A DNA stretch of 14,351 nucleotides from Flavobacteriaceae bacterium (GTDB lineage Bacteria > Bacteroidota > Bacteroidia > Flavobacteriales > Flavobacteriaceae): the NCBI GenBank assembly GCA_023301205.1, contig JALZVC010000088.1, forward strand, positions 1 through 14,351. The letters are read 5' to 3'. The translations under genes and the position numbers were made by a program. This document shows positions 134 to 14,351 of this stretch, in pieces. Within the stretch, counting starts at the first letter, position 1. Every line of letters begins with the position of its first letter. A model generated the notes under the pieces. The model did no database searches, was not told the origin of the DNA, and worked only from the letters and a program-made list of their open reading frames with translations.

Positions 134-165
134 TGTAAAAAAACCGGTCTTAACGGGCATTAAAT

Positions 166-660: not shown

Positions 661-735
661 ACTTTGGTCTTTAATTGGTAGGAGGCTTCACTGGTAGTAA
701 AAAAACAAAAGTAACAAACAAATAGTCTGCTCTAA

Positions 736-795
736 GCTCCTTCCCCTTTTTCAGGGGAAGGTGGGGCGGCTTTGGCGACTCGGAAGGGGGAAGCA
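736..795. repeat. REP-like G/C-rich palindromic element
   Basis: In an otherwise A/T-rich intergenic stretch (661-890) there is a dense G/C block. CCTTCCCCT (739-747) pairs perfectly with AGGGGAAGG (753-761) around a 5-base loop. A further G-rich arm (GGAAGGGGG, 782-790) can compete for the same C-rich arm, so two alternative folds exist. It lies between the converging ends of the genes at 166-660 and 891-1544, where it may also help stop transcription. It resembles dispersed intergenic palindromes of Flavobacteria, and a related-looking one lies at 13915-13960. The rest of 661-890 shows nothing else I can name. Confidence 0.5.
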
Positions 796-890
796 AGCGC
801 AGCGTCTCATGTATTGTGTATTGTTAAGTTTTTTTCTTCTATTCCATACAGTCCACTTACTGCAACCGAAGCGCCCTACGAGCTACAAAA

Positions 891-1544
891 CTAACTACTC
901 ATTAGCCATTCTTTCATTTCATGAAAATTTTGAGGTGCTACGCCGTGACCTACGGGGAATTCTGAATAGGCGCAATCGATGCCTAAATTTGCTAAAAAAG
1001 GTTTTGTTTTACGTGCCCAATCTACGGGTAATACTTGGTCTATATTTCCGTGAGAAGAATAGACGTTTAGTTTGCTAAAATCACTTTTTTCGTAGCCTTC
1101 TATTAGTAATTCGGTATTTATATAACCACTAAGTCCGATAATGTTTTTTACTTTTTCTGGATAGCTTAAACCTACCGAAAAGCTTAAAATAGTACCTTGA
1201 CTAAAACCTATAAGAGTAATATTATTGGCGTCTGCGTTATAGTTTTCTACCACTTCATCAATAGATTTTGCGATTAACTCTCGTGCGTCAATCGCTTGAG
1301 GGATGTCACTCATTTTACCATCTGTATTATCCCAATAAATATTATACCAGGCGTTACCAGAAGGTTGCATTTGTAGTGGCGCTTTTAGACTAATAATATG
1401 GTAATGATCGGGCAATTCTGGTGCGAAAGAAAATAAATCATCTTCATTGCTGCCATACCCGTGTAACAGAATTATTGCAGGATTTGAACCTGTATTTGTT
1501 GCAGGTGCTTTATAGTTATGTTCTAAAGAAAGGGTTTGTTCCAT
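891..1544 (-). CDS. Alpha/beta-hydrolase esterase (phospholipase/carboxylesterase family)
   Basis: A 217-residue serine hydrolase of the phospholipase/carboxylesterase (YpfH/acyl-protein thioesterase-like) family, at the usual family length. The oxyanion-hole segment LLHGYGSNEDDL is at residues 27-37. The nucleophile elbow GFSQG carries Ser115. The acid is Asp169 in HGNIDQVLP and the base is His200 in VGHGV, so the triad is complete. There is no signal peptide, so it is cytosolic and probably cleaves carboxyl- or thioesters of small acyl compounds; the natural substrate cannot be read. It is the last gene of the minus-strand cluster, about 100 bases after the small membrane protein gene. The ATG at 1544 gives the normal N-terminus. 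Family assignment is firm; specificity is not. Confidence 0.88.
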   Translation of the reverse strand: MEQTLSLEHNYKAPATNTGSNPAIILLHGYGSNEDDLFSFAPELPDHYHIISLKAPLQMQPSGNAWYNIYWDNTDGKMSDIPQAIDARELIAKSIDEVVENYNADANNITLIGFSQGTILSFSVGLSYPEKVKNIIGLSGYINTELLIEGYEKSDFSKLNVYSSHGNIDQVLPVDWARKTKPFLANLGIDCAYSEFPVGHGVAPQNFHEMKEWLMSS

Positions 1545-1592
1545 TGGTGTTCAATTTAATTCTCAACGATACGAATTTGTCAGAATTTGGTT

Positions 1593-1606
1593 CCGATAGC
1601 TATCGG
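1593..1606. repeat. Perfect 14-bp palindrome CCGATAGCTATCGG
   Basis: A perfect self-complementary 14-mer lies in the 99-base gap between the small membrane protein gene and the esterase gene, on a cluster read leftwards. It has no loop and no adequate U-tract on the minus strand, so it is a poor terminator candidate. I believe such CCGATAGCTATCGG words recur in flavobacterial intergenic regions, but this is recollection and not something this window proves. Confidence 0.4.
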
Positions 1607-1643
1607 GATTATTTTTTATTGGGATTTTCGCCATCAGGCGTAC

Positions 1644-1967
1644 TTAATCTAAGAATTTAAACCACTTATCAAACCAATCTGATAGGTAAGGTAATCCAGG
1701 TTTTTTGTTAGTAATGGCTCTAAACATAGAGTAAATAAGTAACACGATGGAGGTCCAGTAAAAAAGTTGGCCTAATAATAAGTTGATGTATTTGTCAAAC
1801 ACAATCGCACAAATCCAAAGCAGTACTATCCCAAACATGTTTTTTATGTGTGCCGTGGCAAAAGGGTGTTTCTCGTTACTATTCATAGACATCGAAATGA
1901 GCAAACCCACAAAAGTAATGTATGTAATAATTGCTTTGTTTTTTCCTGGAGGACTTGTTTCAGACAT
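1644..1967 (-). CDS. Small Tic20/DUF4870-like membrane protein
   Basis: A 107-residue protein with three or so hydrophobic segments, at about residues 12-28 (ITYITFVGLLISM), 42-60 (NMFGIVLLWICAIVF) and 64-85. A short polar N-terminus and a Trp/Lys-rich C-terminal tail (WFDKWFKFLD) flank them. The pattern of a first helix, a NEKHPFATAHIKN-type loop and two further helices is that of the Tic20/DUF4870-like family of small bacterial inner-membrane proteins, whose role is unclear. The ATG at 1967 lies one base past the stop of the dihydroorotase-like gene (1969), so the two are almost certainly co-transcribed and possibly translationally coupled. Family call moderate; no function assigned. Confidence 0.75.
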   Translation of the reverse strand: MSETSPPGKNKAIITYITFVGLLISMSMNSNEKHPFATAHIKNMFGIVLLWICAIVFDKYINLLLGQLFYWTSIVLLIYSMFRAITNKKPGLPYLSDWFDKWFKFLD

Positions 1968-1968
1968 C

Positions 1969-3222
1969 TTAATTCAGTTTCAATTTGTTTTTAGAAATAA
2001 TCCCATATACTTTTCCTTTCATTTTCTGGCGCACAAAGGCAGAAGTAGTGGAGGTAGATAAAATATGTTCACTCTCAAAAATCCAGTTCGGTTCAGGATT
2101 AAAAAGCGTTAGTGGTAGTTTGACACCTTCCTTGATTTCGCCCGTTTCAAGACCAAAACGTGCTCTTAGGCAAGTAAGTGCAGTGATTGCTTCGGAAATA
2201 TCAAACATTTGACCCAAAGCTCCAAAACAACTTTCTAGTCCGATGGTGCCGTATTGTGCGTGATCAAATTCTATTTTTTTGTATTCTATATCAATAGGAG
2301 CGTGGTCACTTGTCACACCATCGATTGTACCATCTTTTAAGCCTTTGCGCAAAGCTTTTAGGTCTGTTTTGGTTCTTAAGGGAGGCATTATTTTATATCG
2401 CGTGTCAAAGGTCGCTAACACATCATCTGTGAGCATTAAGTTATGCACAGCCACACTACAGGTAACATCTAGCCCTTTCTTTTTTGCTTTTTTTATGAGT
2501 TGCACTGATCTCTTTGTAGAGACAGTTGGGATGTGCAGTTTGCCTCCCGCGTATTCTAGCAAGTACAAATCTCTAGAGATTTGAAGTTCTTCGGCAAGTG
2601 TTGGTATGCCTTTTAATCCTAGTTCTGTGCTGGACTTGCCTTCGTTCACCATTCCTTTGTTAGCAATGGCAGTATCCATAGGGAAAGACTGTACAAGCCC
2701 GTCAAAGTTCTGTGTGTATTGTAATGCTATTTTTAGCAGGTTTGCATTTTGTATGGGTTGCTTGTAGTCATAAAAACTACTGGCACCTTCTTGTTGCATA
2801 TCATATAGCTCTGCTAGTTCCTCACCTTTTGCACCCTTAGTCATGGCACCAACAGGTAGGATGTTAACCGCGTGATTTATTGCTTTACTTATTAAAAATT
2901 GTACAGAGCCTTTAGTGTCTGTAACGGGTTGCGTGTTTGGGTTTACGCAGACATCTGTAAAACCCGAGGCTGCCGCAACGTTGAGACCATTTTCTATCGT
3001 CTCTCTTTCTTCATATCCAGGCTCCCCAAAACTTACGCTGCTGTCCATCCATCCTAGCGAAACGTGAAGGTTGTCTTTTTCTACCAATCGCATTTTATCT
3101 CTCGCGGCTATTTTTGACGCGATTTGCACGATGATACCATTTTCTATAAGAAGATCACGCTTCTTTAAATGAAGTGTGCCTTGAGGATCAACGATGGTGG
3201 CAGATTTTAGAAGTATTTTCAT
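1969..3222 (-). CDS. Dihydroorotase-like protein lacking metal ligands (probable pseudoenzyme)
   Basis: A 417-residue amidohydrolase-superfamily protein, full length for class I dihydroorotase. Family landmarks are clear: DSSVSFGEPG (60-69), NPNTQPVTD (94-102), PPLR (280-283), DGTIDGVTSDHAP (297-309) and GLES (328-331). The catalytic residues are mostly gone. The HxH metal pair and substrate-binding Arg of DxHVHxRxPG are Ser62, Ser64 and Gly66. The usual HVST histidine is Thr233, the PHH block is VHN (259-261), and the His after DHAP is Ile310. The usual HCED block is replaced around 178-183. Asp306 survives. It is therefore unlikely to convert carbamoyl-aspartate to dihydroorotate. Inactive paralogues (PyrC') that hold aspartate transcarbamoylase together are known in Pseudomonas. 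Here it is co-transcribed with membrane-protein and esterase genes, not pyrB. Databases may simply call it pyrC. Confidence 0.88.
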   Translation of the reverse strand: MKILLKSATIVDPQGTLHLKKRDLLIENGIIVQIASKIAARDKMRLVEKDNLHVSLGWMDSSVSFGEPGYEERETIENGLNVAAASGFTDVCVNPNTQPVTDTKGSVQFLISKAINHAVNILPVGAMTKGAKGEELAELYDMQQEGASSFYDYKQPIQNANLLKIALQYTQNFDGLVQSFPMDTAIANKGMVNEGKSSTELGLKGIPTLAEELQISRDLYLLEYAGGKLHIPTVSTKRSVQLIKKAKKKGLDVTCSVAVHNLMLTDDVLATFDTRYKIMPPLRTKTDLKALRKGLKDGTIDGVTSDHAPIDIEYKKIEFDHAQYGTIGLESCFGALGQMFDISEAITALTCLRARFGLETGEIKEGVKLPLTLFNPEPNWIFESEHILSTSTTSAFVRQKMKGKVYGIISKNKLKLN

Positions 3223-3246
3223 AGCTGTATCGTTTATAGTGGTTAG

Positions 3247-5166
3247 TTATTTCTTATAAAACCGCAACACGAACATTTCTGCTAACAGAAACAAGAAGGC
3301 TGCAATGGCAAACCATTTCCAAAATTCGTTTATTGTATTGTCTTTAACTATATTTTCAAAAAGTTCAGGGATGCTGTCAAAACTCGAAACACCTTCCCAG
3401 TCTTCTGGTAATGCGTATTGTAAAATACTTTCGTCACGAGAATAATTAAAACTAACGTTCTCAATAAAATCTTCATCCTTAAGTACTGCATAAGTGCTCG
3501 CAAGGTCTGGTGTTTCGTCTGTCGTGATCGTCACTTTATTTGCCCCCGCTACTTGTAAAGGTATAAAACTAGCCACACTATCTTTAAGTGTAATTGTTTG
3601 GTCTTGTTGTAACTTGTTAGGGACGGCAAACGTATTCGGTTTTCCTATGGTGTAATATAGTTTTGGCAAGGGTAAACTTTGCAGAGACATATTATATAGG
3701 GTAGGGACAATTAAAGGTGAGCTCTTGAAGTTGGTTATTTCCGAAGCAAAAGGAGCCGTGCTTAAAAAGTGATTGCCTTTTTGTACAATAAACGGCTTTC
3801 CATCTTCAAAAGATAGTGCAGCAGCATTTGTGCCTGCCAACTCATAAAACGAACTCGCCTTTGGGTATTGAAAATTCACTACGCGCTTTTCAAAAACGTC
3901 TTTATATAAAGGATGGTCAAAAGCGATTTTAGTAATCTGTTTTTCTGCGGAAATGCGCTCTCCCATAGTTCCCAGCTTTAAGCTATTGAGTAAGGTGTTG
4001 TAGGTGTTGATAGAAGCATTTGCCGAAGGGATAATAAAAATACTACCACCATTTTCTGAAAACGAGCGAAGGGCAGCAGTTAAAGGTGCAGGGATATTGT
4101 CTAGCTCATTAAGAATGATGAAATTTTGTTTCGGGATCGCATTATAGTCGAGATTCTTATGGGATTGCGGCGTAAAGTTAAATTGAGTACTATTAAATAA
4201 ACGGCTAATAAAACCACCAGCACCTTGATTAATAGCAAGCACGTTTACTTTATTTGCTTCGTTAAGGCTAAAGTAAAGTGTGTTATCATAATTCATGTTA
4301 GGATCGTTAATCACGATGCGACCATCTATCGCATTGTCCTTGTCTAACTCAAAATCGACCGATACGGTTGCACTTTCTGTAAATTCTGCTGTAGTTTTTG
4401 CTACAAGTACTTCTTTATTGTAAAGCGATACAGGAATCGCTTCGTTACTACCTTGAGCCGTTATACGTGCTTCGAGGGTAAGTTTTGAAGCGTCTTTACC
4501 TTTTATATAAACAGTGTCTATCGTTATATTTTGCTTTCGCTCTGGTGATAGCGCAACGGCATTTACCTTAAGATCTTCTGGTATAGAAGGGAAGGCCTCT
4601 TTTAATTGAAAATCTGAGATGTAAATTAGTCGTTTTTCTGCGCCCGTATTTTTAGAAAACAATTGCTCCGCTTTTAAAACAACTTGCTTAGGTGTTAATT
4701 GTTTAAAGCTGTAATCTGTTTGCAGTATTTTTGTCTGAAACGTTTTTAAAGTGACGTCTCTGTTAACATTATCGTTAGTGAACCAGGTTACTTTTTCTTC
4801 TCCTGGTAACTCATACAAACCTTGCATAGCACGCTGTAGTAATGGACCATCAGGACCTTTGGCTTGCATACTAAAAGAGTTGTCTAGGAAAACAACGGTT
4901 TCTTTGTTGGTGTTGAGTGCTGTTTTTGATGCCGAGAAGGGTTGTGCAAATGCCAGAACCAAACACGCAATGACTGCCATTCTTAACAATAAGGTAAGCC
5001 ACTTTTTTAGTTGCGAACTTTTACGCGTCTGGATGTTTACTTTTTTAAGAAAAGCAACATTGGTAAATTCAGTTTTCTGAAATTTTCGTAACTGAAAAAG
5101 GTGAATAATAATAGGAATGAGCAGTAGAAGAAGTGCGTAAAGTAATTCTGGATGTTTAAACTGCAT
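3247..5166 (-). CDS. BatA-like membrane protein with vWA domain
   Basis: A 639-residue inner-membrane protein that opens with the BatA-type N-terminal double-transmembrane module: KHPELLYALLLLLIPIIIHL (4-23), a basic loop with FQKTEFTNVAFLKK, then a second helix at about 56-76. A von Willebrand A-like domain follows, with a MIDAS DxSxS motif at Asp95-Asn-Ser97-Phe-Ser99. The middle (about 305-400) looks like a class I glutamine-amidotransferase-like fold without an obvious catalytic set. A final helix (about 615-633) ends in FYKK. Related proteins sit in Bat aerotolerance and MoxR-type loci of Bacteroidota; a role in envelope assembly is a guess. It is first in the cluster; the dihydroorotase-like gene starts 24 bases beyond its stop. 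Start at 5166 keeps the standard N-terminus. Confidence 0.85.
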   Translation of the reverse strand: MQFKHPELLYALLLLLIPIIIHLFQLRKFQKTEFTNVAFLKKVNIQTRKSSQLKKWLTLLLRMAVIACLVLAFAQPFSASKTALNTNKETVVFLDNSFSMQAKGPDGPLLQRAMQGLYELPGEEKVTWFTNDNVNRDVTLKTFQTKILQTDYSFKQLTPKQVVLKAEQLFSKNTGAEKRLIYISDFQLKEAFPSIPEDLKVNAVALSPERKQNITIDTVYIKGKDASKLTLEARITAQGSNEAIPVSLYNKEVLVAKTTAEFTESATVSVDFELDKDNAIDGRIVINDPNMNYDNTLYFSLNEANKVNVLAINQGAGGFISRLFNSTQFNFTPQSHKNLDYNAIPKQNFIILNELDNIPAPLTAALRSFSENGGSIFIIPSANASINTYNTLLNSLKLGTMGERISAEKQITKIAFDHPLYKDVFEKRVVNFQYPKASSFYELAGTNAAALSFEDGKPFIVQKGNHFLSTAPFASEITNFKSSPLIVPTLYNMSLQSLPLPKLYYTIGKPNTFAVPNKLQQDQTITLKDSVASFIPLQVAGANKVTITTDETPDLASTYAVLKDEDFIENVSFNYSRDESILQYALPEDWEGVSSFDSIPELFENIVKDNTINEFWKWFAIAAFLFLLAEMFVLRFYKK

Positions 5167-5187
5167 GTGCTGATTTCAAATATTATT

Positions 5188-5195
5188 CAAAGATA
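5188..5195 (-). promoter_or_regulatory. Candidate -7 box for the minus-strand cluster
   Basis: On the minus strand TATCTTTG matches the Bacteroidota -7 consensus TAnnTTTG exactly. It lies 21 bases before the ATG of the BatA-like gene, giving a very short leader. No good TTTG -33 box is found at 17-20 bases upstream, so the promoter is incomplete by consensus. Confidence 0.4.
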
Positions 5196-5215
5196 GAAAA
5201 ATGCATGCAATTGGG

Positions 5216-5593
5216 TTACTTCTTAATCGTAAAACTAAATATTGCTCCTTTACCAGGTTCTAAGTTGACTTTAATCTCGCCACCTAGTTTGGTGATAATA
5301 AATTTTACGGTGGTTAAGCCTATTCCAGTTCCTTTTTCACCAAAGCTATCTGCATCTTCCTCAGATTTAAATAACTCAAACATTAATTCTTGTTTATCCT
5401 TATGTATACCCACTATATTAACTTTAACCTGAAAATGATAATAATCTTGTGCCACAGAAAAGGCAATGGTTACTTGAGGAGTCTTATTTTGATTATCTTT
5501 TAAGGAGTAACCTACTAGACTCAAAAATATTTGAAATAGCGCCGCACGGTTTGCGCGCAAAAAAAACATCCTCATTGGGGTGCTATCATGCAA
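5216..5593 (-). pseudogene. Decayed C-terminal remnant of a histidine kinase (HATPase_c)
   Basis: The reading frame encodes about 120 residues that match only the ATP-binding domain of a flavobacterial PAS-type sensor kinase. From ANRAALFQIF onward it follows the family to the normal C-terminus GAIFSFTIKK. The kinase's dimerisation/phospho-acceptor helix and sensor are absent: the frame is open only back to a stop at 5678-5680, that part shows no kinase similarity, and it has no ATG. Two of the three nucleotide-binding boxes are ruined: the N box NLxxNxxK reads SLVGYSLK, and the G1 box DNGIGI reads VNIVGI. The G2 box GTGIGLTTVK and the F-box-like FELFK are intact. The frame could start at TTG 5593 or at an ATG at 5575 or 5569. 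A small expressed non-enzymatic protein is possible, but a truncated, decaying kinase is the simpler reading. Confidence 0.62.
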
Positions 5594-5723
5594 ACATAAG
5601 TTATACAGACGTTTACGTAATATCGCGAATGTAGATTTTTGTTTTTTAGAAAAAGTATCATAATCAGGAGTTGCTTTTTATAGCGGACTTCAGTTATTTG
5701 ATTATAGGTTTTAATTAAAGACT

Positions 5724-5758
5724 CATTCAGAACATTATAGCTTACGTTCAGAACATTT
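5724..5758 (+). promoter_or_regulatory. Predicted LytTR-regulator binding site, copy 1
   Basis: Two perfect TTCAGAACAT repeats at 5726-5735 and 5747-5756 are in the same orientation and exactly 21 bp apart, two helical turns. LytTR-domain regulators are known to bind pairs of 9-10 bp direct repeats with this spacing next to the -35 region. The whole 35-bp block recurs at 8978-9012 with 31 of 35 identities. A candidate -7 box starts 28 bases after the second repeat. The site points toward the kinase gene, suggesting autoregulation by the LytTR protein at 8051-8773. Confidence 0.65.
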
Positions 5759-5849
5759 CCCGCTGTTTAAAAACTTGTTACTATTACATTCGTAGAAGGC
5801 ACATCACAAAATATATTTGAATTATACCGATTTTAATTTTTATTTGGTA

Positions 5850-5895
5850 GTACATACAAAAATGCGGCTGAGAGACAGTCGCTTTTTGTTTGTAC
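5850..5895 (+). other. Imperfect hairpin in the kinase leader
   Basis: The arm at 5850-5866 (starts GTACATACAAAAA) pairs with 5880-5895 (ends TTTGTTTGTAC) over 15 base pairs with one mismatch (5855/5890) and one bulged base (5863), around a 13-base loop rich in GA. No U-run follows, so it is not a standard intrinsic terminator. If the promoter inferred at 5785 is right, this folds in the mRNA leader of the kinase gene. Confidence 0.45.
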
Positions 5896-5929
5896 GTTAA
5901 GTACCATCTTAACTTCTTGATTAAGTATT

Positions 5930-5965
5930 TATGGCATTTACTATGGTATTTACTATGGTATGTTA
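5930..5965. repeat. 12-bp tandem repeat, about three units
   Basis: Three consecutive 12-base units: TATGGCATTTAC (5930-5941), TATGGTATTTAC (5942-5953) and the degenerate TATGGTATGTTA (5954-5965). They end 34 bases before the kinase ATG. The repeat may be a slippage product with variable copy number, or a spacing element of the leader. No protein-binding role can be claimed. Confidence 0.6.
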
Positions 5966-5999
5966 ACATATATTTACAGTTTTAAAAATCAAAGTAAAA

Positions 6000-7946
6000 A
6001 TGAAAAAAAAAGTACTACTACTATATTTTTTTTTAAGTAGCGCTCTAGCGTTGTATGCGCAACCTCACACGGAGAATAAAGAAACGAAACCTCTTATACA
6101 TGCGATTGAAGATTTTATTTTGTCTAAGCAATTAGATTCTGCAGCCTATTACATTGATACAGTTAAAAATAAAACAGACTATACCAGTTTGTTGTTAGCT
6201 ATAGTTAATGGTGAAAAATTATCCTATAGAGCACACCAAACCTTTATTGATAATACATCAAAAAGATATGATATAGACTATATAGATGTTTCAGATTATA
6301 TCAATACATTTATTCAAACTCCAGAAGATGTAAATCAAATAAATGTTGATTATGCTAAGTTAAAAATAAGCCAGATCAATTATTTAAGAGAAGATGAAGC
6401 TTTAGACAAAGCATCATTTATAAACTCAGAATTAGATAGCTATTTAAATCAATTTGATGCTACAGATAAAACTGTGGTTATCAATAAAGCACACGCCAGT
6501 TCACACAATATTATTATGTTGTTTATCCAACGGGATTTTGAGACTGCGCAGGTAATAATTGATAAAAATCTTGCCATTGCTGAAAAATACAATGATAAAT
6601 ACTTAGCGATTGTTTCGTTATATCATCAAAGTGATATATTGGTGAACCAAAGAAAATTACAAGCGTTTATAGATGTTCTTGAAGAAAGTTTACGTATTGA
6701 GAGCCAGTTAGAGCAAAACAGCTCTTATCATAGTATCATAGTGCAACACTTAATTGATGGGTATATCTATAAAGGAGGGCATGAAAAAAGAGTGCTATCA
6801 CTATTAAACGATGTTTATAAAAACAAAGACACAAAATTAGATAGTTATGCATTATACGCTAAATATTTAGCTGCTTTACCATCAAACTCAGAGGCTAAAA
6901 AAGAGATGTTTAAAAAATTTGAAGTTACAAACACATTAGAGTTTACCCAAAAAATTAGAAGTGAAACTAAAGCTGTTTTTAACATAAACGATGATATCCA
7001 TATTGTTACAGAAAGTGCCAATGCACTAGAAAGAGATGGCTATATCGAAGAAGCTTTAAAGTATCAACGCCACGTAGTTAATCAAACAAAAAACTTGTAT
7101 TCTCAGGACCTATCAAAATCACTAGCCTCTTTTCAAACAGAACAGGCTGTTAAGATAAAAGACATTGACATTGAAAATGAAAAAACACGTTCTAAAATCT
7201 ATATTGGAGCTGGAGTAGTAGTAGCAATGTTTTTTTTAGTCGCGTTGTTTTTTCTTTGGAAATCTCAAAAACAAGCAACATTGCTTAAAGATAAAAACCA
7301 CATTATTGATGAAGCACTAAAAGAGAAAGTGTTACTTGTAAAAGAAGTACACCATCGTGTAAAAAATAATTTTCAAATCGTCTCGAGTTTACTAGAGTTG
7401 CAAACTAAAGGTATTGAAGATGAAAAGGCTTTGTCACTGGCTAATGATGGTAAGAACAGAGTAAAATCAATGGCGTTGATTCATCAAAAATTATATCAAA
7501 ATGAAAATGGTTTAATAGATTTTGAAGAGTATACTCAACTCTTGATAAAAGAAATCACTGCTCTTTATGCCTCAGATAAAAAAATCACAACAAATGTTGC
7601 GCTTACAGATATGTATTTTGATGTAGATACGGCAATTCCGTTAGGGCTAATCATTAATGAGATTATTACAAACGCGTACAAATATGCTTTTGATAGCGCA
7701 GAAAATAATGTGCTAAATATTTCTATAAACAAATTAGAAAAAACAGATACATATAATTTAATTATCGCAGATAGTGGACCTGGCTTAGACGATACGATTA
7801 ATCTTAAAAAGGTTAAAAGCCTTGGTTTAAGACTTGTTACACGATTAGTGAAGCAACTGCAAGGAACGTTAGTACAGTTTAATAAAGATGGAGCAAATTT
7901 TGAGATTACTTTTAAAAATACTAATGCTAGAAAAAGCGTGAGTTAA
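6000..7946 (+). CDS. Sensor histidine kinase, periplasmic helical-repeat sensor with HisKA_2
   Basis: A 648-residue membrane sensor kinase. Residues 1-20 are a signal peptide (KKK, hydrophobic core, LYAQP cleavage region). About 25-395 form an all-helical, TPR-like periplasmic region, ending in a coiled segment (about 360-398). One transmembrane helix spans about 400-420. The cytoplasmic part has a HisKA_2 dimerisation domain with EVHHRVKNNFQ, where His452 is the likely phospho-acceptor. The HATPase has an N box at about 550-560 (NEIITNAYKYAF), a G1 box DSGPG (591-595) and a SLGLRLVTRLV G2-like segment. It should phosphorylate the LytTR regulator encoded 104 bases downstream on the same strand. 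The ATG at 6000 gives the signal peptide directly. Codon use matches the neighbours. The ligand or stress it senses is unknown. Confidence 0.92.
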   Translation: MKKKVLLLYFFLSSALALYAQPHTENKETKPLIHAIEDFILSKQLDSAAYYIDTVKNKTDYTSLLLAIVNGEKLSYRAHQTFIDNTSKRYDIDYIDVSDYINTFIQTPEDVNQINVDYAKLKISQINYLREDEALDKASFINSELDSYLNQFDATDKTVVINKAHASSHNIIMLFIQRDFETAQVIIDKNLAIAEKYNDKYLAIVSLYHQSDILVNQRKLQAFIDVLEESLRIESQLEQNSSYHSIIVQHLIDGYIYKGGHEKRVLSLLNDVYKNKDTKLDSYALYAKYLAALPSNSEAKKEMFKKFEVTNTLEFTQKIRSETKAVFNINDDIHIVTESANALERDGYIEEALKYQRHVVNQTKNLYSQDLSKSLASFQTEQAVKIKDIDIENEKTRSKIYIGAGVVVAMFFLVALFFLWKSQKQATLLKDKNHIIDEALKEKVLLVKEVHHRVKNNFQIVSSLLELQTKGIEDEKALSLANDGKNRVKSMALIHQKLYQNENGLIDFEEYTQLLIKEITALYASDKKITTNVALTDMYFDVDTAIPLGLIINEIITNAYKYAFDSAENNVLNISINKLEKTDTYNLIIADSGPGLDDTINLKKVKSLGLRLVTRLVKQLQGTLVQFNKDGANFEITFKNTNARKSVS

Positions 7947-8050
7947 GGACGGAATTTTTTTATTGGCTAAATAGTAAACCTGTCATGTTTTCCGAAATTA
8001 TTATACTGACTATTTCTCTTTTAAAATAAAGCAAAGTCTAAATCATTAAT

Positions 8051-8773
8051 ATGAGTAAAGTTAAAATACTAGTTGTTGAAGATGAAATGATTATTGCAGA
8101 TACTATCTGTAATACCTTAGAGGATTTAGGCTATGATGCGTTAGAGCCTGCAATAAATTTTACGGAGGCCATAGCGGCTATTGAGACAGTGATGCCAGAT
8201 ATTGCTATTTTAGATATCCAGTTATCAGGGAGTAAGACGGGAGTAGATATTGCAAAAAAAATAAATGAGGATTATGACTTTCCGTTTATATTTTTAACTT
8301 CAAATTCTGACATCGCTACGATAGAAGAGGTTAAGAAAGTAAACCCGCCAGCGTTTTTAGTGAAGCCTTTTTCTAAAGAAGAATTATATAGCGCGATTGA
8401 GATTGTACTTTTTAATTATGCCTCAAAAACAGGGCAAGTAGATGTAGCAAATTTAATTATTAAAGATGCCTTTTTTGTAAAAGATAAAAGTGTGTTTTTT
8501 AAGTTTTTATTTGATGATATTCTCTACATAAGGAGCTCGCATGTATACTGTGAGATGTTTTTAAAAAATAATAAAATACAGTTGCTACGTATAAGTCTTA
8601 ATGATATTGTTAAAAAACTAAACCAAAAATTTATTAGGGTGCATCGCAGTTATATTGTAAATCTAGATTACCTAGAGCGAATAGATAATACCTCTATAAT
8701 TATTAAGGAAAATGTAATACCCATTGGGAAAAAATACAAACAAGATATTTTAAGTAAAATCAATTTTCTTTAA
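8051..8773 (+). CDS. LytTR-family response regulator
   Basis: A 240-residue transcription regulator. Residues 1-120 form a CheY-like receiver with Glu10/Asp11 in the acidic pocket, phospho-acceptor Asp55 in ILDIQLSG, Thr82 and Lys104 (FLVKPFS), all as expected for an active receiver. A short linker leads to a LytTR DNA-binding domain at about 137-240, with the family pattern of FFKFLFDDILYIRSSHVYCE, the conserved FIRVHRSYIVNLDYLERI core and the final IPIGKKYKQDI strand. It is the probable partner of the HisKA_2 kinase just upstream. LytTR proteins bind paired direct repeats; two matching 21-bp-spaced pairs flank this operon (5724-5758, 8978-9012), so its likely targets are its own operon and the lipoprotein gene at 9069. 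Terminated at 8855-8880. Confidence 0.93.
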   Translation: MSKVKILVVEDEMIIADTICNTLEDLGYDALEPAINFTEAIAAIETVMPDIAILDIQLSGSKTGVDIAKKINEDYDFPFIFLTSNSDIATIEEVKKVNPPAFLVKPFSKEELYSAIEIVLFNYASKTGQVDVANLIIKDAFFVKDKSVFFKFLFDDILYIRSSHVYCEMFLKNNKIQLLRISLNDIVKKLNQKFIRVHRSYIVNLDYLERIDNTSIIIKENVIPIGKKYKQDILSKINFL

Positions 8774-8854
8774 AAGATACTTCATTTTATAGTTGCTAGT
8801 TTTGCATGATAATAGGATTTTTATAATTAAGTCTAAACTTTACGTTTATGAAAG

Positions 8855-8880
8855 CGACTCCATTTGGAGTCGTTTTTTTT
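8855..8880 (+). terminator. Intrinsic terminator of the kinase/regulator operon
   Basis: CGACTCCA (8855-8862) pairs perfectly with TGGAGTCG (8865-8872) around a two-base TT spacer, which in practice means a tetraloop with the last pair open. A run of eight T follows (8873-8880). It lies 82 bases past the stop of the response regulator and insulates it from the lipoprotein promoter downstream. Confidence 0.88.
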
Positions 8881-8977
8881 GTTTAAATCAGCGGTATCTA
8901 GCGCAACTAAAGTTAGGTGTAATATGTTTTTTAAAGACGAAATACTCTTTTTTGCACCTTTTTTAATTTTTTATAGA

Positions 8978-9012
8978 CATTCAGAACCCTATAGGGTACG
9001 TTCAGAACATTT
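8978..9012 (+). promoter_or_regulatory. Predicted LytTR-regulator binding site, copy 2
   Basis: Repeats TTCAGAACCC (8980-8989) and TTCAGAACAT (9001-9010) are in direct orientation, 21 bp apart, with the 16-base segment TACGTTCAGAACATTT identical to copy 1 at 5724-5758. The second repeat ends 4 bases before the candidate -33 TTTG (9015) of the lipoprotein promoter, the usual position for an activator of the LytTR class. The intervening CCCTATAGGG is itself a palindrome but is not conserved in copy 1. Confidence 0.7.
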
Positions 9013-9014
9013 TC

Positions 9015-9046
9015 TTTGTCTAGGATTTTTTTTAGCTATTTTTTTG
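9015..9046 (+). promoter_or_regulatory. Candidate promoter of the lipoprotein gene
   Basis: TTTG at 9015-9018 is followed after 18 bases by TATTTTTT (9037-9044), an imperfect form of the Bacteroidota -7 box TAnnTTTG. Transcription would start near 9051, leaving a leader of about 18 bases before the ATG at 9069. The imperfect -7 box fits a promoter that needs the activator site immediately upstream. Confidence 0.5.
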
Positions 9047-9068
9047 GCAAATTTTATACCCCAATATA

Positions 9069-9965
9069 ATGAGATTACAAAGTCTATTTTTAAGTGCAGC
9101 CTGCGCACTAGTTTTTTTAACAGGATGTGAACAAGAAACAGTAGCTAAAGAAGCCGCTGCTGCAGATCTTACTGCACAACTTGATTTAAATGCAAAGCAA
9201 CAAAAGCCAAGTGTAGCTTTTGATACTAGTAAAAAAGGAATCTATCATGGTGTAGTGGCGCACGAGTCTAACCAGTCTAGAGGTAAGATCTGGATTAATC
9301 TAGGTAATAATACAAAGTATGACGCTACAATAGAGATGGTAGGAGATCAAAAAATGTATTTTAAATCAAGTTCCAATTATAATAAGGAACAAGAGTATAA
9401 TTATACTGGAAAAAGTGGAAGTTTTACAATAACCATGAATGACCTTAATAACCCAGAGATAACAAGTATGGCACTAAATAATGAGTCCTATTTTGGGTAT
9501 GTAATAAAAAGTACAAATGCTAATAGAGCGACAAGTTATACGGGTACGTTTAACCAAACAGGTGGTGGTTTCTCTGGAACTTGGAATATATTGTCTAATG
9601 GAGCTTTTAATCCTAATGCTTTTTCTGGTACAGCCATTAGTGATGTTATGGTAACTTTAAACGGAACTATGTATACAGATTCAACTATAGAAATTGGAAG
9701 TTTTAGCGCCTTAGGTTTTGCTTCGTGGATTCCTATTGTTGATATTCTTAGTACTAGTAACGAAGGTATTGTAGCTTTTTCTCAACAAACTACGATTGCT
9801 TCTGGTGTTACTTCTTGGAATCTTTGGTATAACACTAGCGCCTTAGGTGATACGGGTTATTATAGTGAAGGAGGTGCGCTTATTAATAGCGGTACTTTTT
9901 CTTGGAATAATCCAACGACAGGTAATACGATTTATGGAGAGATTTATATAGATATTTCTCTGTAA
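9069..9965 (+). CDS. Lipoprotein of unknown function, predicted LytTR target
   Basis: A 298-residue lipoprotein that I do not recognise. Residues 1-20 are a type II signal peptide with lipobox LTGC and lipidated Cys20. An Ala/Glu/Gln-rich linker runs to about residue 50. The mature part (about 55-298) is rich in Ser, Thr, Asn, Gly and aromatic residues, with alternating patterns typical of beta-sandwich or barrel-like secreted proteins (for example GSFTITMNDL, YTGTFNQTGGGFSGTWN, SGTFSWNNPTTGNTIYGEIY). It contains no further Cys and no visible catalytic motif. It stands alone between two strong terminators and directly behind a predicted LytTR site, so it is probably the output of the adjacent two-component system. 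It could be a surface sensor, a binding protein or a cell-envelope factor; nothing in the sequence decides. Confidence 0.8.
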   Translation: MRLQSLFLSAACALVFLTGCEQETVAKEAAAADLTAQLDLNAKQQKPSVAFDTSKKGIYHGVVAHESNQSRGKIWINLGNNTKYDATIEMVGDQKMYFKSSSNYNKEQEYNYTGKSGSFTITMNDLNNPEITSMALNNESYFGYVIKSTNANRATSYTGTFNQTGGGFSGTWNILSNGAFNPNAFSGTAISDVMVTLNGTMYTDSTIEIGSFSALGFASWIPIVDILSTSNEGIVAFSQQTTIASGVTSWNLWYNTSALGDTGYYSEGGALINSGTFSWNNPTTGNTIYGEIYIDISL

Positions 9966-9993
9966 ATGTTTAAGAGTTAAGAATCAGAAAAAA

Positions 9994-10020
9994 GCGACTC
10001 ATTTTTGAGTCGCTTTTTTT
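9994..10020 (+). terminator. Intrinsic terminator after the lipoprotein gene
   Basis: GCGACTCA (9994-10001) pairs with TGAGTCGC (10006-10013) around a TTTT loop, followed by T7 or more; the A-run before the stem extends the pairing with the T-run. It lies about 30 bases past the stop at 9965. The A-rich 5' flank could let it act on both strands. Its stem shares the word AAAGCGACTC with the terminator at 8855-8880. Confidence 0.9.
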
Positions 10021-10043
10021 TGTTTAAAACACGACCCAAACAC

Positions 10044-10074
10044 TTTGGTAATCAAAAGAAAAGAATTATTTTTG
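10044..10074 (+). promoter_or_regulatory. rpsA promoter, full Bacteroidota consensus
   Basis: TTTG (10044-10047), exactly 19 bases, then TATTTTTG (10067-10074): a perfect match to the primary-sigma consensus TTTG-N19-TAnnTTTG of Bacteroidota. Transcription should start near 10081, giving a leader of about 147 bases before the rpsA ATG. A strong consensus promoter suits a highly expressed ribosomal protein gene. Confidence 0.8.
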
Positions 10075-10180
10075 CTGCCCTCTAGCGATAGAAGTAAGAA
10101 ATAGAGTAGTTAAAACAATCAAAATCAAACCCTTCTGTGGGATCGTCGCATAATTTCTTGTAAAAGCACAGAATACAAAT

Positions 10181-10214
10181 CTGGCACATTTTGGCGAAAG
10201 CCAAATCAAACCAG
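10181..10214 (+). promoter_or_regulatory. Stem-loop with GAAA tetraloop in the rpsA leader
   Basis: TTTGGC (10190-10195) and GCCAAA (10200-10205) enclose a GAAA (GNRA) tetraloop. An outer stem CTGG (10181-10184) with CCAG (10211-10214) encloses the whole. The structure ends 13 bases before the ATG at 10228, where it could affect ribosome loading. S1 is known to autoregulate through its mRNA leader in E. coli; a similar role here is inferred from position and structure only. Confidence 0.5.
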
Positions 10215-10227
10215 AAGAACAATTATA

Positions 10228-12168
10228 ATGGCTGATAAAGCAAACAAAGAAGTAGCAGCAAAAGCTACAGAAGCAAAAGTAGAAGCTGTAGCTACAGAAG
10301 TAGTTGCAGAAACTAAAGAAGTAGCAACAGAGGTTACTGCAGAAGCAGTAGAGGCTGCCGCTGTGGTTGAAGAAGCTGCGGCTCCTACAAAACCAGTAAG
10401 AGAGCTTTCTTTAAAAGAGAGTGATCCAGACAAATTTTTAGCAGACTTTAACTGGCACAACTACGAGGAAGGTATTGACCCAATCGATGATGGTAAGTTA
10501 GACGAGTTTGAAAAATTAGTTAAGGACAACTTTGTAGATACTATTGATAATGAAGTAGTAGAAGGTGAAGTAGTATTTTTATCTGACCGTGATGCAATTA
10601 TTGACATCAACGCAAAGAGTGAAGGTGTTATATCTCTTAACGAATTTCGTTATAACCCAGACCTTAAGGTAGGGGATAAGGTAGAAGTATTAATTGATGT
10701 TCGTGAAGACGCAACAGGACAATTAATTCTTTCTCACCGTAAGGCAAGAACAATTATGGCTTGGGATCGTGTTAATAAAGCACACGATGAAGCAACTATC
10801 GTTAACGGTTTTGTTAAATGCAGAACTAAAGGTGGTATGATTGTAGATGTTTTCGGAATCGAAGCATTCTTACCAGGTTCACAGATAGATGTGAAGCCTA
10901 TTAGAGACTACGATGTTTATGTAGGGAAAACAATGGAATTCAAGGTGGTGAAAATCAACCACGAGTTTAAAAACGTTGTTGTATCGCATAAAGCGCTTAT
11001 TGAAGCAGATATCGAAGAACAGAAAAAAGAAATCATTGGTCAATTAGAAAAAGGACAAGTATTAGAAGGTGTTGTAAAAAACATTACTTCTTATGGTGTC
11101 TTTGTAGATCTTGGTGGTGTAGATGGATTAGTACACATTACAGACCTTTCTTGGTCACGTATTAACCACCCTAACGAGATTGTAGAATTAGACCAGAAGT
11201 TAAACGTTGTTATCCTCGACTTTGATGAGGACAAAACACGTATCCAACTTGGTCTTAAGCAATTAAGTGCACACCCTTGGGAAGCACTTGGTGATGAGCT
11301 TAAGATAGGTGATAAAGTAGAAGGTAAAGTAGTTGTAATCGCAGATTACGGTGCATTTATCGAAGTAACTGAAGGTGTGGAAGGATTGATCCACGTAAGC
11401 GAAATGTCTTGGTCTACACACTTACGTAGTGCACAAGATTTTGTAAACGTTGGTGATAAAGTAAACGCACAAATCTTAACGCTAGACAGAGAAGAGCGTA
11501 AGATGAGTCTTGGTATCAAGCAATTGACGCCAGACCCTTGGACAGATATTACTACTAAGTACCCTGTTGGATCACTTCATAAAGGTATCGTACGTAACTT
11601 CACAAACTTTGGTGTTTTTGTAGAACTAGAAGAAGGAATTGATGGATTAATTTACATCTCAGACTTATCTTGGACTAAGAAAATCAAGCATCCAAGTGAG
11701 TTTACTAACGTAGGAGACACACTAGAAGTTAAAGTACTTGAGTTAGACGTTGAAGGACGTAAGTTAAGTTTAGGTCACAAACAAACTGAGGAGAACCCTT
11801 GGGATAAGTATGAGGCTGAATTTGCAGTAGGAACTACACATACAGCCACTATTGATGAGGTTGTAGATAAAGGAGCTGTAATTAACTTTAACGAAGACAT
11901 CTCTGCATTTGTACCTAAACGTCATCTTGAAAAAGAAGACGGAACAGATGTGAAGAAAGGTGAAGAAGCAGAATTCCAAATTATTGAGTTCAACAAAGAA
12001 TTCAAGAAAGTGGTAGCATCTCATATGTCTATACATAAAGAAGAAGAAGCGAAGATTGTTAAGCAAGCCGCAGTTAAGGCGAAGCAACAAGCTGATGAGT
12101 CTAAACCTACATTAGGGGATGCAAACTCAGCATTACAAGCGCTTAAAGACAAAATGGACGGGAAATAA
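10228..12168 (+). CDS. rpsA: 30S ribosomal protein S1
   Basis: A 646-residue ribosomal protein S1, which binds mRNA on the 30S subunit and helps start translation; this matters in Bacteroidota, where Shine-Dalgarno sites are rare. Six S1 (OB-fold) domains can be followed at about 109-171, 189-254, 276-345, 361-432, 447-518 and 534-599. Domains 3-5 show the classic pattern (GVFVDLGGVDGLVHITDLSW and its counterparts), while 1, 2 and 6 are divergent, as usual. A low-complexity Ala/Glu/Val/Lys extension (about 1-55, with repeats such as EVATEV) precedes domain 1 and is absent from E. coli S1. The C-terminus (600-646) is charged and helical. It has its own consensus promoter, structured leader and terminator, so it is a single-gene unit. 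Confidence 0.97.
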   Translation: MADKANKEVAAKATEAKVEAVATEVVAETKEVATEVTAEAVEAAAVVEEAAAPTKPVRELSLKESDPDKFLADFNWHNYEEGIDPIDDGKLDEFEKLVKDNFVDTIDNEVVEGEVVFLSDRDAIIDINAKSEGVISLNEFRYNPDLKVGDKVEVLIDVREDATGQLILSHRKARTIMAWDRVNKAHDEATIVNGFVKCRTKGGMIVDVFGIEAFLPGSQIDVKPIRDYDVYVGKTMEFKVVKINHEFKNVVVSHKALIEADIEEQKKEIIGQLEKGQVLEGVVKNITSYGVFVDLGGVDGLVHITDLSWSRINHPNEIVELDQKLNVVILDFDEDKTRIQLGLKQLSAHPWEALGDELKIGDKVEGKVVVIADYGAFIEVTEGVEGLIHVSEMSWSTHLRSAQDFVNVGDKVNAQILTLDREERKMSLGIKQLTPDPWTDITTKYPVGSLHKGIVRNFTNFGVFVELEEGIDGLIYISDLSWTKKIKHPSEFTNVGDTLEVKVLELDVEGRKLSLGHKQTEENPWDKYEAEFAVGTTHTATIDEVVDKGAVINFNEDISAFVPKRHLEKEDGTDVKKGEEAEFQIIEFNKEFKKVVASHMSIHKEEEAKIVKQAAVKAKQQADESKPTLGDANSALQALKDKMDGK

Positions 12169-12194
12169 TGTTTTCTGAAATTTTAACACTAAAG

Positions 12195-12224
12195 AGCCTT
12201 TCATTTATTTGAAAGGCTTTTTTT
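12195..12224 (+). terminator. Intrinsic terminator of rpsA
   Basis: AGCCTTTCA (12195-12203) pairs perfectly with TGAAAGGCT (12210-12218) around a six-base loop, followed by an uninterrupted T-run to 12224. It starts 27 bases past the rpsA stop codon. The T-tract runs straight into the -7 box of the next gene. Confidence 0.92.
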
Positions 12225-12226
12225 AT

Positions 12227-12234
12227 TATCTTTG
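12227..12234 (+). promoter_or_regulatory. -7 box for the secreted-protein gene
   Basis: TATCTTTG matches TAnnTTTG exactly and lies 22 bases before the ATG at 12257. The only TTTG upstream (12208-12211) is inside the rpsA terminator and only 15 bases away, short of the usual 19, so the -33 element is weak. Promoter and preceding terminator overlap tightly here. Confidence 0.5.
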
Positions 12235-12256
12235 CATCTTAAATAAATATTATAAT

Positions 12257-13186
12257 ATGAAAAAAATTACTTTAATTACAACAATATTGTGTGGTGCAAT
12301 TGCATTTGGTCAACAATCTTTTACGGAGCTTGGAACTCAAGATGTAAACAACGAAAATAATAGTGGAACAGCTACAATTACTAGAGTAGACAATGGTCGC
12401 GCTGCTGTAGTAGATACTTTTGCTAACTTGGCAGATTTCACAGCTGCGGTAGATGAAAATTGTCCAGTTGCGGATTTGAGTTTGGAAATATTTGATAATG
12501 GCCCTGCGGCAATTATGAATTGTGGAACTTCAATAAGCTCTGCAGGTGATGCATGCTTTGCTGCTGGAGAAATAGAAGAAGGATTTGCTGTGGAGGCTTC
12601 TAATGGAACAGATATAATTAATATTCCAACTGGAGCTATTGGTAATGCAGAACCACTTGTAGGATCAAATACTTTTGCTGAATTTACTACGATAACTTTT
12701 GATCCTAGTGTGTTTGCAGCTGGTTTTGATATCTGGAACAATTCTGATCCTTTAACCACTTTAAGGATATTTGGAGAAGGTGATGTCTTAATAGAAACTT
12801 TTGATTTAGCTATTCCTGTAGCTGCTGAAACATTTTTTGGATTTTATGCAGACGAGCCTGTAACAAGAATAGAAATGGAAGGCGCTAATGCTAGTGGAGA
12901 ATTATTAGGTAATTTTTCTTATGGAGCTGTTTGTGTTTTAGGTCTAGAAGACAGCGCTTTAGAGGGAGCTTCTTTGTTCCCTAACCCAGTAACAAATGTT
13001 TTAAACATTAATTTACCTAGCGGTGCTGAATTGAATGAAGTAACTGTTTATTCTATTGAAGGAAGAAATATGAACGTTACTTTTAGTGATAACACGATTG
13101 ATGTGTCTTCTTTATCAACAGGGATGTATCTTGTTAATATCGAAACTTCTGCTGGTACTTTTACGCAGAAAGTATCTAAAAGATAA
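12257..13186 (+). CDS. Secreted protein with T9SS type A C-terminal sorting domain
   Basis: A 309-residue secreted protein. An in-frame ATG at 12209 would add 16 residues but falls inside the rpsA terminator and before the -7 box. The ATG at 12257 directly gives a signal peptide (MKKITLITTILCGAIAFGQQ, cleavage near residue 18-19) and is therefore chosen. Mature residues about 25-230 form an unassigned beta-rich, acidic, Cys-poor region (Cys in NCP, NCG, ACF and VCV, possibly two disulfides), faintly like lectin or jelly-roll domains. Residues about 235-309 are a Por/T9SS type A sorting domain: FPNPVTN, then VTVYSIEGR, then ISTGMYLVNIETSAG-like strands ending in FTQKVSKR. It should cross the outer membrane through the type IX system and be released or anchored at the surface. 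Natural role unknown. Confidence 0.87.
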   Translation: MKKITLITTILCGAIAFGQQSFTELGTQDVNNENNSGTATITRVDNGRAAVVDTFANLADFTAAVDENCPVADLSLEIFDNGPAAIMNCGTSISSAGDACFAAGEIEEGFAVEASNGTDIINIPTGAIGNAEPLVGSNTFAEFTTITFDPSVFAAGFDIWNNSDPLTTLRIFGEGDVLIETFDLAIPVAAETFFGFYADEPVTRIEMEGANASGELLGNFSYGAVCVLGLEDSALEGASLFPNPVTNVLNINLPSGAELNEVTVYSIEGRNMNVTFSDNTIDVSSLSTGMYLVNIETSAGTFTQKVSKR

Positions 13187-13210
13187 AAACGATCATTATT
13201 ATATTTTTAA

Positions 13211-13235
13211 AGCCTTCCACTGCGGAAGGCTTTTT
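13211..13235 (+). terminator. Intrinsic terminator of the secreted-protein gene
   Basis: AGCCTTCC (13211-13218) pairs with GGAAGGCT (13224-13231) around an ACTGC loop, followed by five T (13231-13235). It lies 24 bases past the stop at 13186 and separates this gene from pyrR. Confidence 0.88.
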
Positions 13236-13272
13236 CTATTGGGGAAACCATAGATTATTCAATGAAAACCCT

Positions 13273-13280
13273 TAAATTTG
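13273..13280 (+). promoter_or_regulatory. -7 box for the pyrR-pyrB transcript
   Basis: TAAATTTG matches the TAnnTTTG consensus, 28 bases before the pyrR ATG. No TTTG lies at the expected 19-base distance, so the -33 element is unclear. The leader would be about 20 bases, too short for a PyrR-type attenuator in front of pyrR. Confidence 0.45.
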
Positions 13281-13308
13281 TATCCTGAATATAATTTCAG
13301 AAACTTCT

Positions 13309-13854
13309 ATGAGCCAAAAAGTGTTACTCAACGCAACAGAAGTGCAAATAGCACTTCACCGACTGGCTTGTCAATTAATTGAAAATCACGATACATTTAG
13401 CAATACAGTTCTTGTAGGCATCCAGCCACGAGGTATTTTTCTTGCAGAACGGTTAAAAACAATGCTACAAGACGAATATAAAATTAAGGATATCCAGCTA
13501 GGGTATCTGGACATTACCTTTTATCGTGATGATTTTAGAAGGAATGACAGAACATTAGAAGCCAATAAGACACAACTTAACTTTGTCGTAGAAAATAAAA
13601 AAGTAGTCTTTATTGATGATGTCTTATATACTGGTAGAAGTATTAGAAGTGCGCTTACTGCCATACAAGATTTTGGACGTCCACTAGAAGTAGAATTACT
13701 GACATTAATAGATAGACGTTTTAGTCGTCATCTACCCATACAGCCAGATTACAGAGGAAGACAAGTAGATGCCATAGGTGATGAGAAAGTAAAAGTATGC
13801 TGGAAAGAGAATGATGGAGAAGATGCGGTTTACTTAATGTGCGATGAGCAGTGA
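13309..13854 (+). CDS. pyrR: PyrR-type regulator/uracil phosphoribosyltransferase
   Basis: A 181-residue type I phosphoribosyltransferase of the PyrR family, at the standard length. The PRPP-binding loop is VVFIDDVLYTGRS (99-111) with Asp103/Asp104 and Thr108-Gly-Arg. VGIQPRGIFLAERL (36-49) is the family's second PRPP/PPi loop, and LGYLDITFYRDDF (64-76) and LIDRRFSRHLPIQPDYRGRQVD (133-154) are strongly PyrR-like. In Bacillus PyrR is an UMP-sensing RNA-binding attenuator with uracil phosphoribosyltransferase activity; here only the enzyme fold can be read, and no PyrR-type leader is evident in front of pyrR. It is followed after 120 bases by pyrB on the same strand, fitting pyrimidine-pathway control or uracil salvage. 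Confidence 0.93.
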   Translation: MSQKVLLNATEVQIALHRLACQLIENHDTFSNTVLVGIQPRGIFLAERLKTMLQDEYKIKDIQLGYLDITFYRDDFRRNDRTLEANKTQLNFVVENKKVVFIDDVLYTGRSIRSALTAIQDFGRPLEVELLTLIDRRFSRHLPIQPDYRGRQVDAIGDEKVKVCWKENDGEDAVYLMCDEQ

Positions 13855-13914
13855 GTTGTTAGCATTGAAAATGAGATTATAGTTAAGGCAGGAAGTAGTT
13901 TAAAAATATAATTA

Positions 13915-13960
13915 GTTCTCTCCCTCGGGGAAAGATGCTCGCAGGGCAGAGAGGGAGAAC
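13915..13960. repeat. REP-like palindrome between pyrR and pyrB
   Basis: GTTC-TC-TCCCTC (13915-13926) pairs with GAGGGA-GAAC (13951-13960) over ten base pairs with a two-base bulge, around a G-rich loop of 24 bases containing GGGGAAAGATGC. G/C content is far above the flanks. No T-run follows, so it is not an ordinary terminator. It has the layout of the element at 736-795 (pyrimidine-rich arm, GGGGAARG core, purine-rich arm) and looks like a dispersed intergenic repeat inserted in the operon, where it could alter mRNA stability or read-through into pyrB. Confidence 0.5.
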
Positions 13961-13974
13961 AAAGAATAAAAAAA

Positions 13975-14351
13975 ATGGAATTAAGTGTAGACCATTTGTT
14001 AGGAATAAAATACATCACTGAAGATGATATCCAACTCATTTTTGAGACAGCAGATCATTTTAAGGAGGTAATTAATAGACCGATAAAGAAAGTGCCTTCA
14101 CTACGTGATATTACCATTGCCAATTTGTTTTTTGAAAACAGTACGAGAACTAGACTTTCCTTTGAAATTGCAGAAAAAAGACTTTCTGCAGATGTCATTA
14201 ATTTTTCGGCAGCATCCTCTTCTGTTAAAAAAGGAGAAACCCTTATCGATACGGTAAATAATATTTTATCTATGAAAGTAGATATGGTGGTAATGCGTCA
14301 CCCCAATCCGGGTGCGGGAGTTTTTCTTTCAAAACACGTAGATGCAAAAAT
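13975..14351 (+). CDS. pyrB: Aspartate carbamoyltransferase catalytic chain, 5' part
   Basis: The first 125 codons of an aspartate transcarbamoylase gene that runs off the window; the frame is open to the last base. The enzyme joins carbamoyl phosphate and aspartate, the committed step of pyrimidine synthesis in the cytosol. The carbamoyl-phosphate signature FFENSTRTRLSFE lies at residues 52-64, with Ser56-Thr-Arg-Thr-Arg60. The next conserved loop, SSSVKKGETL (81-90), supplies the mobile Ser and Lys of the neighbouring active site. VVMRHPNPGAG (105-115) follows as in the family. The ATG at 13975 gives the standard N-terminus (MELSVDHLLGI). It follows pyrR in probable co-transcription. Whether it forms holoenzyme with PyrI or a dihydroorotase-like partner cannot be seen here. 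Confidence 0.95.
   Translation, partial: MELSVDHLLGIKYITEDDIQLIFETADHFKEVINRPIKKVPSLRDITIANLFFENSTRTRLSFEIAEKRLSADVINFSAASSSVKKGETLIDTVNNILSMKVDMVVMRHPNPGAGVFLSKHVDAK

Follow-up and report, generated by a model that had tools for sequence, protein, structure and literature searches.

The window analysed here is a stretch of 14,351 nucleotides from the draft genome of a Flavobacteriaceae bacterium (assembly GCA_023301205.1, contig JALZVC010000088.1, positions 1–14,351, forward strand). It carries a two-component system composed of a sensor kinase and a LytTR-type response regulator, followed by a lipoprotein-like gene. Two paired repeats, designated box pairs 1 and 2 (sites 1 and 2), lie upstream of the kinase gene and of the lipoprotein gene, respectively (Table 1). 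In a Pfam scan, the regulator contains a receiver domain (Response_reg, 3.6e-18) and a LytTR domain (2.2e-14), confirming that a LytTR regulator is encoded between the two sites, as the first-pass annotation of this DNA had stated. Receiver residue D55, invariant in all five sequences compared, is presumably the phosphorylation site, and phosphorylation there may control the regulator. The LytTR domain reads FIRVHRS and satisfies the FhRhHRS motif, which is given as a feature of this domain in part of PMC4227749.

Table 1. Features of the window in order of position
Feature	Position	Strand	Remarks
LytTR box pair 1	5726..5755	+	TTCAGAACA at 5726-5734 and 5747-5755
-7-like box TACATTCG, one mismatch to TAnnTTTG	5785..5792	+	29 bp past box pair 1
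Predicted short terminated RNA or attenuated leader	5799..5889	+	start placed by reference to the -7 box
Hairpin with T run, resembling an intrinsic terminator	5864..5887	+	upstream of the kinase start at 6000
Sensor kinase, 648 amino acids (aa)	6000..7946	+	HisKA_2, HATPase_c
LytTR response regulator, 240 aa	8051..8773	+	Response_reg, LytTR
Terminator-like hairpin 3' of the regulator gene	8850..8877	+	
LytTR box pair 2	8980..9009	+	TTCAGAACC at 8980-8988, TTCAGAACA at 9001-9009
Weak -7-like box TATTTTTT, one mismatch	9037..9044	+	27 bp past box pair 2
Gene for a lipoprotein-like protein of 298 aa, probable target of box pair 2	9069..9965	+	paralogue of the contig C253 lipoprotein
Terminator-like hairpin after the lipoprotein gene	9988..10019	- (scored strand)	a plus-strand T run also follows

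The pattern TTCAGAAC-N13-TTCAGAAC (TTCAGAACN13TTCAGAAC) occurs perfectly twice in the window, at 5726-5754 and 8980-9008, both on the plus strand. When up to three mismatches are allowed, four matches are found, the additional two being the same two places on the minus strand; none of 200 dinucleotide shuffles of the window reached four. Each pair is embedded in a 35-bp block (5724-5758 and 8978-9012), and the blocks share 31 of 35 positions (89% identity). Of the four 9-mers in the two blocks, three are TTCAGAACA, and the first in copy 2 has C as its last base. Direct-repeat comparison and exact pattern search thus bear out the first-pass description of twin blocks, each with repeats 21 bp apart and both facing rightward. 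The sites display the layout of a LytTR target, two direct repeats of ~9 bp with a ~12-bp spacer above a promoter. The loose LytTR consensus is [TA][AC][CA]GTTN[AG][TG], which TACGTTCAG matches. The claim of a newly proposed motif holds in part: TACGTTCAG falls within this consensus, while a search of openly licensed papers found neither the longer box core, the dialect TTCACAACA described below, nor the associated promoter geometry, and no LytTR box in Bacteroidota.

The draft genome spans 1.87 Mb and is about 60% complete. It contains three perfect pairs, the two in the window and one on contig C253, and all three precede a gene or an RNA-like unit. A blastn search of the genome with 5715-5900 returned this segment itself and the other two pairs, and nothing else. 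With up to three mismatches the count was 41, not higher than the 46 of a reversed-pattern control, so that only the best sites are meaningful in this genome. Contig C253 carries in-phase box triples twice, with units of 0–2 mismatches. One triple precedes an open reading frame (ORF) of 58 aa (L009:4186-4362, no Pfam match). The other precedes a lipoprotein gene, which is followed by a TonB receptor gene; its product is 29% identical to the window lipoprotein over 178 aa (E 6e-18, pairwise comparison). The window lipoprotein-like protein itself gave no family above the cut-off in a Pfam scan. The small regulon that had been proposed thus gains sites before the 58-aa ORF and a paralogous lipoprotein gene. 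A dispersed repeat or mobile-element end of no regulatory role could account for the presence of two almost identical 35-bp blocks in DNA rich in A and T. The check for such a repeat was run and did not bear it out; the genome counts from pattern search and blastn rule out dispersal, and since the phase and promoter distance are also conserved in relatives, the chance of this origin is negligible.

Relatives of the window regulator are few within its own genus. At E <= 1e-30 the regulator is unmatched in seven of the ten other genomes of the genus, and the remaining three hold relatives at only 36–39% identity. Nearer relatives come from other genera, at 56% in genome G078 and 70% in a Lutibacter metagenome-assembled genome. 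The loci of 80 relatives were fetched, the best 80 of at least 347 confirmed. TTCAGAAC-like pairs are spaced at 21 bp in 12 cases among the 15 near loci, versus 0–1 at other spacings, and in 18 cases among the 65 far loci, versus 0–3. A sequence-free test, which scored any 10-mer repeated with at least 9/10 identity within 500 bp after the regulator gene at spacings of 12–40, found the 21-bp spacing in 37 of 80 loci and each other spacing in 0–4. By eye, 33 of the 37 repeats are box-like; those of L059, L069, L094, and L124 are not. The sites lie on the strand of the regulator and mostly directly after its gene, as site 2 does in the window; in G078, one site is located between kinase and regulator. 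A lack of conservation, which would have spoken against the first-pass proposal, is not what the check found, and the reading of the sites as LytTR boxes is well supported by these comparisons.

The boxes occur in two main dialects. Regulators near that of the window are accompanied by TTYAGAACA (G-box), and a sister clade including Allomuricauda, Maribacter, Robiginitalea, and others by TTCACAACA (C-box). A third dialect, TTCATACCA, is present twice at 21 bp behind the regulator of L072; no exact 21-bp repeat was seen at L063, the sister of L072. Across 30 genomes searched, 16 of them G-box, all nine exact G-box pairs fall within six of the 16 G-box genomes, and 13 of 14 exact C-box pairs in C-box genomes or G070. 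One-mismatch totals were 39 against 7 control matches for the G-box and 54 against 12 for the C-box; several one-mismatch G-box places fall inside genes. The dialect follows the regulator clade in these sequences. A tree built from 50 of the 85 regulators unites the C-box regulators in one clade (99/97) and shows the G-box regulators as one change with weak support. LytTR positions 164 and 199 are H/R in 17 of 17 G-box regulators and N/K in 32 of 32 C-box regulators, and position 199 aligns with N201 of AgrA, a minor-groove contact according to part of PMC12482169. A residue code at these positions was considered and set aside as indistinguishable from descent, because several receiver positions segregate by dialect just as cleanly and the tree places the C-box regulators in one clade and the G-box regulators at one change.

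The linkage and the dialects also bear on whether the boxes belong to the neighbouring regulator or to some other LytTR regulator encoded in this genome. LytTR is a common domain, and the ~60%-complete genome gave ten first-look candidates with the regulator as query. However, the sites adjoin relatives of the window regulator in many genomes, the dialect tracks its clade, and the genome holds a single regulator match at E <= 1e-30, which together make a different owner improbable.

The Bacteroidota -7 consensus is TAnnTTTG, as presented in part of PMC7366714. Its position was measured from the second repeat at 90 sites selected on boxes alone. TAnnTTTG begins exactly 28 bp past the second repeat at 34 of 90 sites, with 29 more at one mismatch; any other downstream offset yields at most one exact match, and the upstream control nine exact matches in total. 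Most of the +28 sites are C-type rows of related species and hence non-independent, and a small number of rows are fortuitous matches within genes. Among the G-type rows, 12 of 29 have a -7-like box (at most one mismatch) at 27–29, including both window sites. One C253 site shows an exact TATATTTG at 38, one helical turn beyond, and one Lutibacter site a one-mismatch box at 38. For LytTR regulatory systems, part of PMC6193735 places the repeats about 10 bp above -35.

These features suggest the following mechanism. A dimer of the activated regulator would bind the two 9-bp repeats, which are two helical turns (21 bp) apart and just upstream of a Bacteroidota-type housekeeping promoter with its -7 box about 28 bp on, and would help RNA polymerase to start. 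Site 2 would thereby turn on the lipoprotein gene. Site 1 would most likely yield an RNA of ~90 nt that ends at the terminator before the kinase gene, and kinase expression, if any, would come from read-through or another promoter. We give a probability of about 0.82 to this reading, in which the two blocks are activator sites of the intervening LytTR regulator, site 2 serving the lipoprotein gene and site 1 most likely a short RNA.

Several observations weigh against it. A 21-bp repeat is missing from 43 of 80 loci in the sequence-free test; these include most of the more distant regulators, and also L056 and L060 of the window's clade, and loci from close species are non-independent. One exact C-box pair sits in a G-box genome, G153. 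No -7-like box is present at 27–29 in 17 of 29 G-type rows, and the window boxes each contain one mismatch and lie at 29 and 27 rather than 28. Lastly, the predicted window RNA has no convincing sequence relative: outside its own genome there are short weak matches alone, 24–57 nt in 9 of 117 other genomes at E 2.7e-4 to 0.009, so that homology cannot confirm the RNA.

The first-pass annotation directed one copy toward the kinase operon and the other toward the lipoprotein gene. The lipoprotein gene is the likely target of pair 2. The first assignment is weakened by the -7-like box and the terminator at 5864-5887, which intervene before the kinase and favour a short RNA or an attenuated leader; on the sequence, we lean somewhat toward this outcome for site 1. 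The layout of box pair, -7 box, and terminator matches that of the RNA units in relatives. The predicted RNA folds at -22.3 kcal/mol (z -3.84), a stability that none of 200 shuffles attained; it comes mainly from the terminator part, which by itself reaches z -5.22. Alternatively, site 1 might drive the kinase-regulator operon as an autoregulatory promoter, with a hairpin that either plays no part or acts as a regulated attenuator in the leader. Positive autoregulation through such repeats is described for other LytTR systems in part of PMC6193735. Kinase autoregulation is plausible in the sister clade, where the final box unit ahead of the kinase frequently lacks a terminator and 55–145 nt separate the predicted RNA start from the kinase start. 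In the window, by contrast, the distance from the predicted start is ~65 nt to a strong terminator and about 200 nt to the kinase ATG, and at the nearest relative, L047, no site was found upstream of the kinase. Autoregulation at site 1 is accordingly possible but the less likely of the two outcomes.

Terminated units of this kind are also seen in the sister clade. Many C-box loci contain up to five box-promoter units between regulator and kinase, and many of these units have a terminator within ~110 nt of the predicted start and no gene behind. One putative RNA family has a near-invariant core. Its 22 units from the fetched loci can be aligned, and all of them follow a box pair; in the terminator stem, 7 of 13 pairs have changed on both sides. 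The core TTTTCATTTTCATATAGTGTTC, with at most one mismatch, is present in 70 of 397 family genomes; its reversed control gave no match among the matches listed. The flanks were checked in 30 loci from 30 of the 70 core genomes, a non-random draw. A C-box pair scoring at least 14/18 lies in the 130 nt preceding each of the 41 cores there, and in 39 of the 41 a -7 box (at most one mismatch) is positioned exactly at 28. Among random 130-nt windows drawn from these loci, 51 of 1200 reached a score of 14, some of them possibly through true boxes. Of 81 genomes covered by both searches, the core occurs in ten, all among the 15 with a regulator at E <= 1e-50, and in none of the 66 without; the 15 include the window's own genome and G078, both of the G-box type. 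The sister clade thus contains several near-identical candidate RNA genes, often more than one per genome, each preceded by boxes.

Rfam gave no match to the box-unit RNAs at gathering thresholds in seven sources. At E <= 1, three sources gave solely sub-gathering matches, two of them overlapping RNA units of L073, and these are taken as chance. L073 also carries a Flavo-1 RNA above the gathering score (57.9 bits, L073:14719-14801, minus strand), which has no relation to the box units. Between regulator and kinase, L067, L073, L079, and L087 carry terminated units of a second family, with CCCAAATCTTA or similar after the predicted start. The idea that the core pairs with ATG-AAA-rich gene starts found no support: after exclusion of the RNA gene's own copies, matches to the complement of part of the core did not clearly outnumber those in the control.

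Outputs in the window's clade were surveyed at 18 loci, namely L058 and those of 17 G-box regulators. In ten of the 18, the box is followed by a gene for a large protein of 884 to >3100 aa, and seven of these genes extend past the end of the locus. Eight of the ten proteins (all but those of L052 and L061) were scanned, and seven match surface- or secretion-type domains, namely LamG, SprB, beta-helix, DUF285, thrombospondin-3, immunoglobulin-like, and the sorting tail of the type IX secretion system (T9SS). The L047 protein had no domain match in the scan. The gene is OmpA-like in L059 (Pfam) and in G141 (by eye), and the loci L057 and L099 end too soon to show it. The window itself has the lipoprotein gene and the short RNA unit. 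Three Polaribacter loci display a putative terminated RNA of roughly 70–110 nt before kdtA. The core of this RNA is found with at most one mismatch in 11 of 78 genomes, two of them exact, and a box accompanies the core at those two loci only, for which reason a genus-wide RNA family was rejected. As a target in these loci kdtA is the less likely choice, since the terminator intervenes and -7-like boxes precede the gene by eye, exact in L050 and weaker in L051 and L048. At L152:1501-1530 and over the next ~100 nt, in Lutibacter genome G148, a G-box pair is followed by a -7-like box at +38 and a short ORF beginning MNKPIQKKKTWTAPEVVDLNV; a similar short ORF lies upstream. By eye, the MNKPIQKKKTWTAPEVVDLNV ORF resembles a modified-peptide (RiPP) precursor.

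Two further features lie elsewhere in the window. A lone HATPase_c stretch of 119–125 aa (5216-5593, minus strand) is present without the remaining kinase, and the other frames upstream of it are rich in stops; it has the appearance of a relic of a different sensor kinase. Downstream, a protein of 309 aa bearing a T9SS sorting tail (Por_Secre_tail) is encoded at 12257-13186, and no box pair scoring at least 14/18 precedes its gene.

A wider interpretation, which we favour with some reserve, is that a Bacteroidota-wide kinase-LytTR family with a fixed grammar (2–3 boxes at 21 bp, then ~28 bp, then TAnnTTTG) fires terminated small RNAs, surface-protein genes, and the gene of its kinase. In the sister clade there would be a highly conserved multi-copy small RNA hitherto unrecorded, and window site 1 would be a diverged unit of the same design. 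Because box, dialect, regulator clade, and promoter distance are readable from sequence, such regulons should be predictable by scanning. The small RNA of 70 of 397 family genomes offers an experimental handle, a putative two-component output of several near-identical RNA genes, and the sites before large surface or secreted proteins in the window's clade bear on the control of the bacterial surface.

LuxO-Qrr and CiaR-csRNA are two-component systems that drive several similar small RNAs. The sister clade resembles them in having one regulator before several near-identical small RNA genes, but the regulator families are different and its RNAs are without an Rfam match. In the agr system of Staphylococcus aureus, the kinase is peptide-sensing and of another type than the window kinase, and one output of AgrA is the regulatory RNA RNAIII. 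The box sequence differs from that of agr, and the predicted RNAs of the present systems are short, frequently number several per genome, and show no relation to RNAIII in Rfam. Like the window regulator, AgrA is a LytTR response regulator, and it binds two direct repeats upstream of promoters (P2/P3), as described in part of PMC4227749. Rfp18 of Flavobacterium psychrophilum is likewise a conserved flavobacterial small RNA; the excerpted text of PMC9723704 contains no LytTR term. In the LytTR regulatory systems (LRS) HdrRM and BrsRM of Streptococcus mutans, a membrane inhibitor is the partner of the LytTR regulator and there is no kinase, whereas the window regulator bears a receiver and its partner is a HisKA_2 kinase, which places it outside the LRS class. 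The likeness to LRS lies in the 9-bp repeat pairs with a 12-bp spacer just above the promoter and in positive feedback, as set out in part of PMC6193735.

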